A DNA stretch of 64,000 bases from Chromatiales bacterium (GTDB lineage: Bacteria > Pseudomonadota > Gammaproteobacteria > Steroidobacterales > GCA-2729495). The stretch spans positions 757,325-821,324 of the forward strand of contig CP070671.1 in the NCBI GenBank assembly GCA_020351875.1. The letters run 5' to 3'. The position numbers and the translations under genes are program-made. The notes below the pieces were generated by a model that saw only the letters and a program-made list of their open reading frames with translations, was not told the origin of the DNA and did not search any database. This document shows positions 10,802 to 59,950 of the stretch, piece by piece. How positions within the stretch are numbered: position 1 is the stretch's first letter; every line of letters begins with the position of its first letter.

Positions 10802-10968
10802 CTAAATCCCTAAACGAGCGGCAATTACGTAAGCGATTAATTTCGATAAAGATTTTTTTAACTGCCGTCTTCCGGCAAGTTTCAGCGGCCCCTAACTTAT
10901 TGTTCGGCCAAAAGGTATGGGTTTTGGCATGATCCGGCCGTAACCTACTATTTTTCTAAGTAAAATGC

Positions 10969-10997
10969 TTGACTAGCAACGCGCGCAGCACTATTGT
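10969..10997 (+). promoter_or_regulatory. Sigma-70-type promoter of the DUF6502-repeat gene pair
   Basis: TTGACT (10969-10974), exactly 17 bases, TATTGT (10992-10997). Expected transcript start near 11004, about 19 bases before the gene at 11023. Good fit to consensus in an AT-rich setting. Confidence 0.6.
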
Positions 10998-11022: not shown

Positions 11023-11838
11023 ATGGACCTAGACTTGAAGCTCCGCCTCAAGGCGGCATACAGACAACTTTTGCGCCCCCTAGTCCGGATCCTTATTAGG
11101 AACGGGATTGAGGCAAATGAGTTCACTGAGCTTGCCAAGCTCGTCTACGTCGATGTCGCAAGAGCTTCAATACTTCGAGAAGGCAGAGAGGCACAGAATA
11201 AAGAACTAGCCAGCGTAACTGGTTTGCCAGAACACGAAATCGAAAAAATAACTAATAGAAGCGCTAGCGAAACAGGAGAGGACAGCAACCTTGGATTGAT
11301 CACGAAAGTTTTGTCGGGGTGGCACACCGATACTGAGTACACGGGACCGTACGGTTTGCCGCTCGAACTGACTTTTGATGATCCACGCTCCCCGAGCTTT
11401 GCTGCTTTGTGTGCCCGATATGCACCAGCCGCAAATCCAAAGCAGTTGCTATCGGAACTCATACGAATTAGCGCGGTAAAAGAAACAGACGATAACTGGT
11501 TCAAGGTACTAACGAGAACGTACTTACCCAAGTTTGATGACCCCGCCAGTCTTGAACATCTTGGGCAGTCAATTGAAAACTTCGCAAACACAATCGACCA
11601 CAATCGGGCTCACAACGACCCTGAGAGCAAACTGTTCGAGCGCGTCGTTGAGGCAGATGACGGCATACGGCCGGAAGACTTGCCTCGCTTTAAGCAATTT
11701 GTACGTGATAGAGCCCAGCTACTACTGGAAGAAATCGACAACTGGTTGAGCCAGCTGGATACACCTAAGGAAAACAACGACAAAGCGGTAGTGAACACCG
11801 GTTTAGGCATTTATCACTATGTCGAGAAGAAAGACTAA
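11023..11838 (+). CDS. DUF6502 family protein, predicted DNA-binding
   Basis: 271 aa, soluble. I recognise the DUF6502 pattern: a helical N-terminus (YRQLLRPLVRILIRNGIEANEF), then a helix-turn-helix at about residues 58-77 (NKELASVTGLPEHEIEKI), the GWHTD stretch, SPSFAALCARY, and a C-terminal helix with LLLEEIDNWLSQL ending in GLGIYHY. No catalytic motif seen. The function of the family is not known to me; DNA binding is inferred from the HTH. Directly precedes and probably shares a transcript with the octapeptide-repeat gene (39-base gap). A second, divergent relative lies at 12990-13874. Confidence 0.75.
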   Translation: MDLDLKLRLKAAYRQLLRPLVRILIRNGIEANEFTELAKLVYVDVARASILREGREAQNKELASVTGLPEHEIEKITNRSASETGEDSNLGLITKVLSGWHTDTEYTGPYGLPLELTFDDPRSPSFAALCARYAPAANPKQLLSELIRISAVKETDDNWFKVLTRTYLPKFDDPASLEHLGQSIENFANTIDHNRAHNDPESKLFERVVEADDGIRPEDLPRFKQFVRDRAQLLLEEIDNWLSQLDTPKENNDKAVVNTGLGIYHYVEKKD

Positions 11839-11877: not shown

Positions 11878-12945
11878 ATGATCAGCCGCGAAATAGGTAA
11901 ACGCGTACTCATTGCCACCAGGCGCGGCGTCCTCGGGATCGCAATTTGCATGTGTACCACCCAGTATGTGCTGAGTGAAACAGTTCTATTGGGGGTTAAT
12001 AGTTCAGGCGTGTTTCTAGTCGATACGCAATCTGCAGCAAGTAGCGAAGGTTTAGCCTCGCCGTCCGTTGCGGTTTCAACGCAGGGCATCCGCGGCAGCG
12101 GTGTGCGCGGAATTAGAGGTAGCGGTGTTCGCAAGGATGGAACCACAGAAACTCAAGGCATCCGCGGCAGTGGGCTCCGAGACGAAACAGAGGATGCGCA
12201 ACAGCAAGATGTCAGCACGGGAGTCCCGCTATTGGCCATCGGACCAGTCACAGGTGTCGGTACTGATTCCATAAGCGTAATGGGTGTTGAGATAGACCTC
12301 ACCGAGACAACGCAGCTTCTAGCAGTCGAGACTTCCGGTGAGGTCACATCCTCGTTGGCTGCCGGAAATGATTCTTCGCTGGGGCTCGGTGACTACGTCG
12401 CCGTTGGCGGTTTTGGCGCGGTTGATGCTAAAGCAGCGAACGTTGTAGTCGTTAGCCCTGTCCCCTATCTAGAGGGATCATCTTCCGTCTTTATCAGGGG
12501 CGCGGTCGCAAACGCAAAGAGAGACATAGCCAAACTGGAAATCGATGGCATGAACGTCGACTACTCTGGCGCTCTTTGGAGCGTGCAGAACGCTGAGGTA
12601 AAAGACGGCGTATTAGCAGAATTTGCAGGCGTTGCACATAGTGGCGTTATCTACGCAACTGAGGGAGAAGTTCTCGATAGCTTCCCGCCTGAAGCCCAGG
12701 CGACTGACGTGACGGCGGTTTCACAGGGCATTCGCGGCAGTGGTGTCCGAGGCATCCGCGGCAGTGGCGTCCGGGGCATCCGCGGCAGCGGTGTCCGAGG
12801 CATCCGCGGCAGTGGTGTCCGGGGCATCCGCGGCAGCGGTGTCCGAGGCATCCGGGGCAGTGGTGTCCGCGGTGATGACGATGCCGAAGCCCTGGGCATT
12901 CGCGGCAGTGGCGTCCGGGGCATCCGCGGCAGCGGTGTCCGCTAA
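11878..12945 (+). CDS. GIRGSGVR octapeptide-repeat protein with DUF5666-like core, probably exported
   Basis: 355 aa. Residues 1-33 look like an export signal: basic start, a twin-arginine TRRGVLG, then a hydrophobic run to about residue 32. Residues 70-101 carry three octapeptides, two GIRGSGVR and one GIRGSGLR, with an 8-residue interruption. Residues 110-275 hold two beta-rich units like the DUF5666 OB-type domain (IGPVTGVGTDSISVMGVEI; FIRGAVANAKRDIAKLEIDG). Residues 284-355 carry eight more GIRGSGVR units, six in a row, an 8-residue acidic break, then two ending exactly at the stop. Strong ribosome site AGGAGAG. I know no described protein with this repeat; function not assigned. Confidence 0.8.
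   Translation: MISREIGKRVLIATRRGVLGIAICMCTTQYVLSETVLLGVNSSGVFLVDTQSAASSEGLASPSVAVSTQGIRGSGVRGIRGSGVRKDGTTETQGIRGSGLRDETEDAQQQDVSTGVPLLAIGPVTGVGTDSISVMGVEIDLTETTQLLAVETSGEVTSSLAAGNDSSLGLGDYVAVGGFGAVDAKAANVVVVSPVPYLEGSSSVFIRGAVANAKRDIAKLEIDGMNVDYSGALWSVQNAEVKDGVLAEFAGVAHSGVIYATEGEVLDSFPPEAQATDVTAVSQGIRGSGVRGIRGSGVRGIRGSGVRGIRGSGVRGIRGSGVRGIRGSGVRGDDDAEALGIRGSGVRGIRGSGVR
12085..12180 (+). repeat. N-terminal 24-bp repeat cluster (three octapeptide units plus one spacer unit)
   Basis: Units at 12085-12108, 12109-12132 and 12157-12180, with a 24-base spacer coding KDGTTETQ. Units one and two encode the same eight residues but differ at several codons: GGC/GGA, ATC/ATT, CGC/AGA, GGC/GGT, GTG/GTT. 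Confidence 0.9.
12727..12942 (+). repeat. C-terminal 24-bp repeat array (six plus two units)
   Basis: Nine consecutive 24-base slots: six repeat units, one slot coding GDDDAEAL (12871-12894), two repeat units. The eight real units differ from each other at only a few third positions, in an alternating pattern (AGT with CGG, then AGC with CGA) that suggests a 48-base higher-order unit. Confidence 0.92.
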
Positions 12946-12989: not shown

Positions 12990-13874
12990 TTAGCGTTGGG
13001 CCTCTTTGTGTGATTCGTTTTCGAAGAGGTAAACACCTAGTCCAACTAATCGGTTAGCACTAGGCTGTGGACGATCGCGAGTTGAATCGCCTGTCTCAAT
13101 TTTCTTTGTTTCTCGGTTTCCGATCCACGTATCTAACTCTGCTAGCAATTCAGCAGATTTTTTTTCCGCAAGCAACTTGAATTCTGCGACATCATCATCA
13201 GATAGATGCGTGCTCCAAACGTAACGTTCCATGAGACCTAGATTCTTCAAATCATCAGTGTCGCTGCGGCGGGAATAAGTCGCGTTCGTCATCAGCGTCT
13301 TTGCCAAATTCCCTAAGGAAAAGGCCATCGATCCGATAAATCGCTCGTTGAACACCGTTGGCGTGTAGTACCGGGAGACAGGCCGGATTCTTCCGTCCGA
13401 TGATTCCGAGACAGATCCCGCTCGCCTCAATTCAGCCAGCATCGCGCCAGCGGGTATGTCACCCCCATACCTCTTACATAGATCTGAGAAAGATGGACTT
13501 TTGCCGGTAGGAACTAATGCTTTCGGGTCGCCCTTCTCATCCAGAAAGAGCGGGTCACTGTGCCAAGAATGGAGCACGATCGTGGCAGGATTTAGCCGAT
13601 CGATATCCATTGAAGTATCTGCTTCGGTTGCCTCCTCAGTCTGGCGAATAGACCTGATCTCCTTCCGTGTCAGACCTGTCATGACTGCGACGCGAGATAT
13701 GTTGGTCGGACGACCACGAACGCCGTAAACCTTGCTCGCAACTTGAACGAACTCAGCCTTCGTTATCTGAGAAAACTCCTTAAACCCGACCCCCGCCTCA
13801 AGCAAGAACTGAATGATCGGGCTTACTATGCTTCTAATGGCGGAACGGAGTTGGTCGTGAGAATCAGTAGCCAT
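12990..13874 (-). CDS. Second DUF6502 family protein, predicted DNA-binding
   Basis: 294 aa. Same layout as the protein at 11023 and alignable with it without gaps over the first 76 residues: helical start (IQFLLEAGVGFKEF), HTH at about 56-77 (PTNISRVAVMTGLTRKEI), SWHSD, SPSFSDLCKRY, a late helix with LLAELDTWIG and GLGVYLFE near the end. Identity between the two is low, so they are old paralogues rather than a recent duplication. This copy has the more typical HTH of the family. Convergent with the octapeptide gene. Role unknown; a regulator is inferred. Confidence 0.77.
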   Translation of the reverse strand: MATDSHDQLRSAIRSIVSPIIQFLLEAGVGFKEFSQITKAEFVQVASKVYGVRGRPTNISRVAVMTGLTRKEIRSIRQTEEATEADTSMDIDRLNPATIVLHSWHSDPLFLDEKGDPKALVPTGKSPSFSDLCKRYGGDIPAGAMLAELRRAGSVSESSDGRIRPVSRYYTPTVFNERFIGSMAFSLGNLAKTLMTNATYSRRSDTDDLKNLGLMERYVWSTHLSDDDVAEFKLLAEKKSAELLAELDTWIGNRETKKIETGDSTRDRPQPSANRLVGLGVYLFENESHKEAQR

Positions 13875-20980: not shown

Positions 20981-21973
20981 ATGGCTGGCAAGAAGGCAAC
21001 TTCTCGTAAGCGGTCCACCGCCAGGAGCACACGCTCGGCGGCGAAAAAGCGCACGGCCAAAAAGAAGGCGAGCAGCAAGCGTGCTGCGTCGTCACGGAAG
21101 ACATCGGCCAGAAAGGCCACTAGCAAAGGACGCAAGACCAAGGCCGTGAGCAAGAAGACCACTGCGAAAAAAACCGCCGCGAAAAAGAAGACGAAGAAGA
21201 AAGCCGCGGCCAAGAAATCGACCCGGAAAGCCGTGACCAGGAAGGCCACGGCCAAGAAGGCGAGCAAGAAGAAGGTCGCCAAGAAAAAGGTGGCGAAGAA
21301 GACCGCCGCCAAGAGCAAGGCGAAGAAGGCGGCTGCCAAGCCAAAGCCAAGGACGAAGGCCAAGGCCAAGGCCAAGCCAAAGGCCAAGCCAAAGGCCAAG
21401 GTCAAAAAGGCCGCCCCGAAGAAAGCGGCGAAGAAGCCTGCGGCAAAGAAAGCCGTGGCTGTCAAACGAACTGCAACGGCGGTGGCAAAGCGCAAGCCGG
21501 TGGCCACTGCGAGGCGGCGCAAGGTCAGCACCGATCCCGATGCACTGATTCACGGCATCACGCCATACCACGCCGGTGCCGGCGAAGAGTACATGAGCGA
21601 TACCCAGCTCGAACACTTCCGCGAGATTCTGCTGGCCTGGAAGCGCGAGCTGATGGAAGAGGTCGATCGCACTGTGCACCACATGCAGGACGAGGCTAGC
21701 AATTTCCCGGATCCGAACGACCGGGCCACACAGGAATCGGAATTCGGGCTCGAACTGCGGACCCGTGACCGCGAGCGCAAGTTGCTCAAGAAAATCGAGC
21801 AGGCCCTGCTGCGCATCGAAGACGGCAGCTATGGATTCTGTGAGGAGACCGGCGAAGAAATCGGCCTGAAGCGCCTGGAGGCCCGGCCAGTCGCCACCCT
21901 GTGTGTCGAAGCGCAGGAGCGTCGGGAACTCGCCGAACGCCAGTACCGCGATCGGGACGATCAGTACCGCTGA
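20981..21973 (+). CDS. dksA: DksA-type RNA polymerase-binding regulator with histone H1-like N-terminal arm
   Basis: 330 aa, over twice the length of E. coli DksA. Residues 1 to about 178 are almost only Lys, Ala, Arg, Thr and Ser, like bacterial H1-like proteins. From GEEYMSDTQLEHFREILLAW onward it is a clear DksA: coiled coil with the tip motif DEASNFPDPNDRA and the zinc-finger region. Only two of four zinc cysteines remain: C287-E-E-T290 and C308-V-E-A311, the same C/T/C/A pattern I recall for zinc-independent DksA2 proteins. DksA binds the polymerase secondary channel and works with ppGpp in the stringent response. The basic arm probably binds nucleic acid. Confidence 0.92.
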   Translation: MAGKKATSRKRSTARSTRSAAKKRTAKKKASSKRAASSRKTSARKATSKGRKTKAVSKKTTAKKTAAKKKTKKKAAAKKSTRKAVTRKATAKKASKKKVAKKKVAKKTAAKSKAKKAAAKPKPRTKAKAKAKPKAKPKAKVKKAAPKKAAKKPAAKKAVAVKRTATAVAKRKPVATARRRKVSTDPDALIHGITPYHAGAGEEYMSDTQLEHFREILLAWKRELMEEVDRTVHHMQDEASNFPDPNDRATQESEFGLELRTRDRERKLLKKIEQALLRIEDGSYGFCEETGEEIGLKRLEARPVATLCVEAQERRELAERQYRDRDDQYR

Positions 21974-58816: not shown

Positions 58817-59950
58817 TCAGGAGGTCATGTTATCGAAGAACCGGCGGACGCCGTCGGTCCACGACGCCCACTTCGGCCGATGCCGGGCGCCATTGTTTTC
58901 CAGCGACTCCTCCAGCTCGCGGAGCAGCTCCTTCTGGCGGGCGTTCAGATTCACCGGGGTTTCCAGGTCGACCCGGCAGTACAGGTCGCCGGTCGCCTGG
59001 CTGCGGACCGGTTTCACACCTTTGCCCCGCAACCGGAACAGCTTGCCGGACTGGGTTTCGGCGGGAATCTTCAGCGTGACCTCGCCGTTCAGCGTCGGTA
59101 CCTGCACCGCGCCCCCCAGCGCCGCGGTCGCAAACCCAATCGGCACCGAACACGCCAGGTCGGCGCCGTCCCGCTCGAACAACGGGTGCGGCTTGATGTG
59201 AATGTCCACATAGAGATCGCCGGGCGGCCCGCCGTTCTGGCCGGCCTCGCCCTCACCGCCCAGGCGAATGCGGTCGCCGTTGTCCACCCCGGGCGGTACC
59301 TTGACTGCCAGGGTCTTCTCCGACCGGACGCGGCCCTCGCCGCGGCACGTCTTGCAGGGGTCTTCGATGATCGCACCCACGCCGCGACATTTCGGGCAGG
59401 TTTGCTGGACGGAGAAAAATCCCTGCTGCATGCGAACCTGGCCGCTGCCGCCGCACGTGGAACAACTGGTTTTGCCGGTACCGGGTTTTGCGCCCGAACC
59501 GTCGCAGGTGTCGCAGGTGTTCAGGGTGGGAATCGTGATGTTGACGGTGTCGCCGAATACCGCGGTCTCGAGATCCAGGTCGAGCTCGTAACGCAGGTCG
59601 GCGCCGCGGAACACGGTGCGGCGACCGCGCCGGCCGCCGCCGCCGAAAATATCGCCGAACACGTCGCCGAAAATGTCGCCGAAGGCGTCACCCGGGCCGA
59701 AGCCGCCACCGCCACCCGCTGCGGCATCGACACCCGCGTGCCCGAACTGATCGTACGCCGCGCGCTTGTCGGCATTGCTGAGGATTTCGTAGGCCTCTTT
59801 GGCCTCCTTGAAATTCGCTTCGGCGTCGGCATCGCCCGGGTTGCGGTCCGGGTGGTGCTTCATCGCGAGGCGCCGGTAAGCCTTCTTCAGCGTCGCATCG
59901 TCGGCCGATCGATCGACGCCCAGCACCTCGTAATAATCGCGCTTGGCCAT
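58817..59950 (-). CDS. dnaJ: Chaperone DnaJ
   Basis: 377 aa Hsp40. J domain with HPD in [14 protein letters not shown], a Gly/Phe region, four CxxCxGxG zinc repeats ([32 protein letters not shown]) and the substrate-binding beta domains. Activates DnaK ATPase. ATG 59950 has an AGGAGG ribosome site; the frame extends seven codons upstream but those are not conserved. Confidence 0.98.

Follow-up and report, generated by a model that had tools for sequence, protein, structure and literature searches.

Species-specific octapeptide arrays co-vary with the hood-like domain of an adjacent DUF6502 regulator in Gammaproteobacteria

The regulator HetR and RGSGR-type peptides form a textbook prokaryotic Turing system, which spaces specialized cells in filamentous cyanobacteria. 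In the peptide quorum-sensing systems agr and ComQXPA, which have specificity groups, peptide and sensor domain vary in concert and the output domain is constant. The peptide donors of the RRNPPA systems are generally single-copy. RRNPPA proteins are described as cytoplasmic peptide receptors of Firmicutes (PMC9765709). The HetR ligand is given as RGSGR, from PatS and HetN, with PatS6 adding a strand to the hood domain and Glu253 of HetR being indispensable (PMC4649674). HetR is also reported to be controlled by HRGTGR, which is cut by PatP from Sec-exported PatX, and PatX is reported to need export and cutting in order to act (PMC12756182). In the open-access literature, neither a HetR-like system outside the cyanobacteria, nor a paper naming DUF6502, nor GIGGTG as a peptide motif in the sense of a DUF6502 partner was found; DUF5666 is mentioned in some papers.

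The locus described here lies in a stretch of 64,000 nucleotides from a Chromatiales bacterium (contig CP070671.1), referred to here as the window. Its gene order is DUF6502a > repeat gene < DUF6502b < LigA, and the following features are relevant.

10940..10997, + strand: promoter of DUF6502a, with TTGACT at 10969-10974, 17 bp, and TATTGT at 10992-10997.
11023..11838, + strand: DUF6502a, a HetR-like regulator of 271 aa and the proposed octapeptide receptor (PF20112, 131.6 bits; AF2 mean pLDDT 86.6; HetR the best PDB match; coupled to the unit).
11023..11283, + strand: DNA-binding part of DUF6502a (residues 1-87), a helix-turn-helix region whose sigma/HTH matches fall at residues 31-84 of the model; uncoupled from the unit.
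11533..11760, + strand: region of DUF6502a (residues 171-246) corresponding to the HetR hood, with the strongest coupling to the unit.
11638-11640, + strand: DUF6502a Glu206, aligned on HetR Glu253 in a low-confidence alignment.
11878..12945, + strand: repeat protein of 355 aa, the proposed exported multi-copy peptide donor.
11878..11976, + strand: signal-like N-terminus, approximately residues 1-33 (hydrophobic helix 2-30 in the AF2 model).
12085..12132, + strand: octapeptides 1-2 (GIRGSGVR twice), residues 70-77 and 78-85.
12157..12180, + strand: octapeptide 3 (GIRGSGLR), residues 94-101.
12226..12687, + strand: OB-like, DUF5666-like core, residues 117-270 (Pfam 17.3 bits; confident in the AF2 model; OB-fold matches).
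12727..12870, + strand: octapeptides 4-9, residues 284-331.
12895..12942, + strand: octapeptides 10-11, residues 340-355, up to the stop codon.
12990..13874, - strand: DUF6502b, a second HetR-like regulator, convergent (PF20112, 132.4 bits; uncoupled from the unit).

The DUF6502 surroundings that an earlier note on this DNA had reported for the repeat gene were confirmed, both flanking genes matching PF20112. Matches to the repeat protein were present in 21 of 60 relatives, and many more relatives share the architecture with other units, so the case of a non-conserved ORF, which that note had also considered, was not borne out. Of 19 family loci retrieved, 8 repeat the order DUF6502a > repeat gene < DUF6502b and 11 are interrupted by a contig end. 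LigA is found on the DUF6502b side in 12 of the 19 and YciI/BolA/TsaC on the other side in 8, with both in 3. None of the BolA-side genes of the window was found at the loci of genus g4, and synteny on that side is therefore not universal. Because the LigA and YciI/BolA neighbors are kept in relatives, the locus is chromosomal, inherited and common to the family rather than the “small DUF6502 island” first suggested, and a mobile island was rejected on synteny.

Nine further loci, selected for two DUF6502 matches facing each other, each contained a signal-bearing repeat protein between the pair, and at three loci the order was DUF6502-DUF6502-repeat, all in one direction. Wherever both types could be classed, the gene directly upstream of the array on the same strand was of the “a” type. 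Two adjacent “b”-type DUF6502 genes stand beside the array in G024 (L057, 265-1931, - strand). Elsewhere in the genome of the window (approximately 1206919-1209500; L008, L051), the gene after a second DUF6502 gene encodes a lipoprotein that has five DUF5666 domains and the motif GIERLGV but no array. The window also holds tandem repeats at 21254-21406 coding for lysine, alanine and proline in the manner of a histone-H1-like tail and a 12-bp tandem repeat, CGCCGAAAATGT, at 59641-59683 in 3.6 copies.

Inspection of the repeat protein reveals three octapeptides before and eight after the core. The eleven units counted in the earlier note, with eight ending at the stop codon, are present, ten of them being GIRGSGVR and the third GIRGSGLR. 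The eleven units are written in ten different 24-base sequences, yet encode only these two peptides. The array gave a tandem-repeat score of 253-288 (TRF), and the octapeptide DNA pattern matched its own genome 10 times, always inside the repeat gene, with 0 matches for the reverse pattern and 0 for the control. A signal-like start and a beta-rich, DUF5666-like core had been described beforehand. The N-terminus is exported-looking as judged by a hydrophobicity rule and the predicted AF2 helix, and the core is OB-like, but its DUF5666 score of 17.3 bits is under the Pfam cut-off of 27. DUF5666 was matched at E <= 0.1 in 20 of 30 aligned relatives (best 5.7e-10), with 42.1 bits for L179. The AlphaFold check of the core that the earlier note had proposed yielded a model (30 relatives) in which residues ~117-270 are confident and the array is mostly at pLDDT <50, as a monomer only. 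The nearest folds to the core were OB folds (Foldseek best 3tdq, PilY2, E 7.5e-3, with no match at E 0.001; best VIA Z 7.0), and the profile of the repeat protein matched LpqH among PDB sequences at E 0.035-0.04. No plasmid homologues were found at E 0.01.

The units are uniform inside one gene and different between species. In relatives they read GITGSGVK, GIHGSGLK, GINGSGMR, GISGSGAK, GIAGTGLN, AIRGSGVR, GQRGTGLR, GLKGSGVR and AIGGTNVQ, and further SIGGGDSPL, SLSGGSGV, GLRGSSGIR, AKGISGSGIR, STKGIDGSGA, GINTGDVL, GIDQADVL and others, with 21 distinct units in 24 family species and 30 in 31 loci of a second genus. Among 54 array rows, in which some contigs are counted twice, the period is 8 in 42 and 6, 9, 10 or 11 in the others; spacers vary too, and the longest array, that of L186, has up to about 44 octads. 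In L142, 13 units differ by 262 synonymous and 0 nonsynonymous codon changes, and the codon comparison therefore indicates that selection acts at the protein level on the repeat peptide. Codon counts were confined to L142 and the hand-listed units of the window because a loose pattern took in off-phase octads, with a nonsynonymous share of up to 0.83.

It had been proposed that basic, disordered repeat tails bind something negatively charged, such as LPS, DNA or another anion. The unit of the window and those of several relatives do carry a net charge of +2, but the charge per unit extends to -2 (GIDQADVL), and of the 54 rows 32 have positive, 8 nearly neutral and 14 negative units. Given that 22 acidic or neutral rows stand at the same locus with the same partner, anion binding fails as an explanation for the family; it could hold only as a local trait and is considered highly implausible.

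Pfam matches to a Gp5-type beta-helix, to collagen, to fibrinogen-binding proteins and to the prion octarepeat were rejected as repeat-driven and mutually unrelated. Gp5_trimer_C (PF22178) was matched at E <= 0.1 in 4 of 30 relatives, with L164 at 24.9 bits against a cut-off of 30.9, and was not matched in Pfam by the repeat protein of the window. These matches, the likeness of the octads to fibre repeats and the length of the L186 array would suit a structural or adhesive protein, in which the glycine-rich octapeptides would assemble into a fibre, beta-helix or matrix, with DUF6502a only controlling expression. Against such a role stand the low pLDDT of the array (in the monomer), the varying spacers and periods and the disparity of the repeat-rich Pfam matches. 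It also leaves the coupling to the regulator hood (below) unexplained and is regarded as improbable.

An alignment search with DUF6502a returned 193 relatives, mostly from uncultured Gammaproteobacteria but also from Nitrospira and others, of which the best 80 were kept. The genes downstream of DUF6502 in these best 80 of 193 were either arrays or lipoproteins with a single GIGGTG between the lipobox and DUF5666. At 13 of the 80 loci the hydrophobicity rule found no exported-looking ORF, and 67 partners were thus scorable. The motif [IVLM]xG[ST]G was present in 45 of these 67, against 18.5 expected from shuffles, and occurred anywhere in 45 of 363 other ORFs of at least 300 aa. The 22 partners without the strict motif were mostly arrays with degenerate units. 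Across the class to which the window belongs, DUF6502 was found in 76 of 274 genomes, and 40 of the 76 were sampled independently of arrays. The next gene was exported-looking and carried G[ILV]xG[STA]G in 28 of the 40 (19 by script and 9 by eye, the latter from a pre-filtered print), a looser motif (for instance ETGTG) in 7, whereas in the other 5 it was missing or undecided; a laxer script alone gave 29 of 40, four of them unconfirmed by eye. Among the other signal-like ORFs of this sample, the count was 0 of 93.

The partner of DUF6502 need not contain DUF5666, as L299, L302 and L295 have partners of 93, 90 and 77 aa. These tiny exported-looking proteins, with GIVGTG, GIGGTG or DVGTGK, are the most PatX-like of the partners. 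In L117 (5209-5562, + strand), a lipoprotein-like partner of 96 aa has KIIKNG repeats in place of the glycine motif. The DUF6502-DUF5666 lipoprotein pairs (PF20112, PF18914) are made up of the same two families in the same order as in the window, with a single GIGGTG motif; the window protein differs in having an array, no lipobox and a degenerate DUF5666 core.

The predicted fold of DUF6502a resembles that of HetR weakly but over its full length. In a Foldseek search of the PDB with the AF2 model, HetR ranked 1-3 (E 2.7e-3, 1.5e-2 and 5e-2), the best match being 4j00 (prob 0.99, TM 0.34), with no PDB match reaching E 0.001. With five HetR entries, VIA-align matched residues 6-269 of the model to 9-301 of the chain, 212-226 residues being aligned at Z 7.2-7.8, a range (Z <8) that according to the tool may reflect mere common arrangement, and with an rmsd of ~10, because of which the domains are taken to sit differently. 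Among the 50 VIA-align entries listed, HetR alone exceeded 200 aligned residues, other proteins reaching at most 99; sigma/HTH fragments scored up to Z 8.6, above HetR.

Sequence homology to HetR was non-significant. Neither DUF6502a nor DUF6502b matched the Pfam HetR families PF03574 and PF18460 (the HetR_C hood), their only matches being PF20112 and a spurious RNA_pol at E 0.14, and HetR matched PF03574 and PF18460 but not PF20112 at E <= 10. Since these models do not cross-match, DUF6502 is proposed here to work like HetR and is not classed as a member of the HetR family. In an HMM search, HetR ranked 1 and 2 of the 1243 non-DUF6502 entries reported, at non-significant E values of 0.22 and 0.58, and hhalign of HetR with DUF6502 gave a local P of 0.021, a probability of 2.2% and no global alignment. 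Seventy-two DUF6502 representatives, which are not independent of one another, outscored 596 decoys (p 5e-5 and 2e-10; reversed query, p 0.25 and 0.41), whereas in pairwise comparisons with Anabaena HetR as query each single representative was outscored by the shuffle and decoys. The register varies from one pairwise alignment to the next, offsets of 30-50 being the commonest (12 of 50 and 17 of 60). The HMM alignment places Glu206 of DUF6502a on HetR Glu253 with a posterior of ~0.5. Array partners mostly have Glu at this position; one clade has Asp, and Gln occurs alongside single-copy GIGGTG partners, a distribution confounded by phylogeny. The DUF6502 profile gave one weak, unrelated match among PDB sequences (E 0.14). 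No HetR was found in plasmids, and a single pattern match in viral contigs was not a relative.

Compared with HetR and its peptides PatS, HetN and PatX (PMC4649674, PMC12756182, PMC7761841), DUF6502a appears to show the same domain order, with the DNA-binding part first, a middle domain next and a hood-like part at the C-terminus. The peptide donor would also be exported, G[S/T]G lies at the heart of the peptide, as in RGSGVR of the window beside RGSGR, and DUF6502 partners can, like PatX, be tiny. The HetR ligand RG[S/T]GR itself is absent here, the window unit being RGSG-V-R, in which the final Arg is preceded by an additional residue, and the units of many species have no Arg (TGSGVK, GGTNVQ, NTGDVL etc.). 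Unlike HetR and PatX, this system has two DUF6502 genes at each locus and a donor that contains an OB-like domain and carries the peptide many times, and its hosts are not cyanobacteria.

The relationship between unit and regulator was quantified by Mantel tests, for which the family units were set by hand, the 9-mer of G019 and the 10-mers of G027 and G011 being cut to octamers. Across 24 family species, unit distance followed the distance of DUF6502a residues 171-235 given residues 1-87 with a partial r of 0.81 (p 0.0002). The value was 0.66 (p 0.0002) for the 18 species with octamers only, that is, with G019, G027, G011 and the AIGGT group left out, and 0.56 (p 0.0002) for 31 of 38 loci of the second genus, seven loci that were cut or had no readable unit being dropped. 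Descent was controlled with LigA in 15 of the 24 species (G001, G005, G008, G027, G030, G035, G036, G060 and G062 were dropped, LigA or DUF6502b being missing on the stretch). Given LigA, the hood remained coupled to the unit (0.65, p 0.0014), whereas the DNA-binding part (-0.15) and the hood of DUF6502b (-0.08) did not; residues 88-170 of DUF6502a, given LigA and residues 1-87, gave 0.13. The repeat-protein core is encoded between the receptor gene and the array; it was likewise uncoupled given LigA (0.06, p 0.38), and the hood given LigA and this core gave 0.73 (p 0.0002). In these alignments, the unit therefore co-varies after LigA correction with the hood of DUF6502a, while the DNA-binding part of that protein, DUF6502b and the repeat-protein core do not follow it. 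In the second genus, compared without LigA correction, the N-terminal part of DUF6502a also tracked the unit (r 0.49; still 0.15, p 0.04, given residues 171-235). The hood is on average not more diverged than the N-terminal part (mean identity 51% and 46%).

Because the LigA and core controls were negative, linkage and descent do not explain the coupling in this sample. The same controls, together with that of DUF6502b, argue against an explanation at the DNA level, by which the repeats are DUF6502 sites inside the gene or products of replication slippage and the covariation stems from shared ancestry. Arrays are indeed homogenized within a genome, and tandem repeats slip; however, variation under a constant peptide is synonymous in L142 and the window and the period varies from 24 to 30 bp, and this explanation is judged very unlikely. 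The proposed ligand and the proposed sensor part co-vary and the output part does not, as is characteristic of agr-like specificity-group systems.

A comparison of two species, G014 and G036, is also instructive. Over 5.4 kb upstream, their DNA is 97-100% identical per 100-bp bin, and codons 1-87 of DUF6502a are identical. Identity then drops to 68-91% in bins over codons ~88-235, with 65 synonymous and 28 nonsynonymous differences in codons 88-271, most up to ~222, and with amino acid changes densest at residues 201-220 (8 of 20). The signal and core of the repeat protein return to 96-100% identity (6 of 579 nt and 2 of 193 aa differ), and the array reads GINGSGMR in 17 of 17 units of one species versus GITGSGMR or GITGSGIR in 13 of 13 of the other (G014 being listed first). 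The alignment indicates that only two tracts, the hood-bearing part of DUF6502a and the array, were exchanged, with conserved DNA between them. The effector tract of G036 is barely nearer than that of G014 to GITG-bearing species (61/59, 64/61 and 67/64%), and only one such close pair was found.

The contigs of five family MAGs (G034, G031, G003, G023 and G022) end inside DUF6502a at model positions 74-94. These are five of the six cut family copies, and the ends fall where the G014 and G036 alleles start to differ; strain diversity breaking the assemblies is a possible cause, which would hint at more than one specificity group in a single species. The clustering was given little weight because it is absent from the second genus, where contig ends lie at 84, 142, 193 and 248.

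Upstream of DUF6502a, TTGAC and TA...T spaced 16-19 bp apart were present in 20 of 21 family loci, the -10 end lying 22-31 bp from the start codon in 19. Upstream of the promoter in the window stands GTAACC..CTAAGTAA, which resembles TAAGC..CTTATGTAA found in relatives. TAAG-N12-CTTA was found upstream of DUF6502a in 5 of 21 family loci, against at most 3 in 30 shuffles. No palindrome with a 5-mer arm common to more than 2 of the 21 loci was detected, as in shuffles. The loosely shared element is a possible operator, and DUF6502a may regulate its own gene.

The following model is the favored account and appears more likely than not: a peptide and receptor module like that of HetR and PatX, in which an exported donor would supply many copies of a species-specific peptide and the hood-like domain of DUF6502a would be the receptor. 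The product of the repeat gene would be exported as a multi-copy octapeptide donor and the exported array cut into octapeptides. The earlier idea of a precursor from which octapeptides are cut is thus favored, with cleavage itself presumed. By analogy with PatX, the octapeptides would re-enter the cytoplasm, where the peptide (GIRGSGVR here) may bind the C-terminal hood-like domain of DUF6502a and change its grip on DNA, probably at its own promoter. With receptor domain and peptide changing together, each species, and perhaps each strain, would answer to its own peptide. DUF6502b, uncoupled from the unit, may be a second output or a partner.

The main rival, considered unlikely, is internal feedback with no intercellular signal, in which DUF6502a binds the motif of the unexported precursor and so gauges the export or lipoprotein load of its operon partner. 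The constant gene order DUF6502a > partner and the place of the single-copy motif directly behind the signal peptide or lipobox are consistent with such feedback, which would yield the same covariation. It does not predict 8 to 40 copies, nor almost as many units as species (21 different ones among 24; 30 among 31), and its analogue PatX is reported to act only after export and cutting (PMC12756182).

Set beside other peptide systems, the proposed module shares with RRNPPA a cytoplasmic regulator that would read a short exported peptide but differs in phyla and in that no TPR fold was seen in DUF6502a. The agr and ComQXPA systems use a membrane histidine kinase as receptor and a modified peptide, whereas a cytoplasmic one-component regulator is proposed here. 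Its principle makes the proposed system a variant among peptide-controlled regulators, while its family, its range and its multi-copy donor appear to be undescribed.

More broadly, and at about even chances, DUF6502 proteins may be HetR-like peptide receptors that are widespread in Proteobacteria and Nitrospirota, with exported GIGGTG-type partners as their donors. In some lineages the donor would be a tandem array, each species having its own peptide read by a co-evolving hood, and the principle, perhaps the ancestry, would be common to cyanobacterial patterning. If DUF6502 is a counterpart of HetR, a testable role can be assigned to two functionally uncharacterized families, and the origin of the cyanobacterial system can be approached by comparison. 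Gram-negative bacteria would gain a peptide-signaling family with ligands readable from the genome, and the unit-to-hood code, with at least 50 species-level pairs, would make specificity directly testable with synthetic octapeptides.
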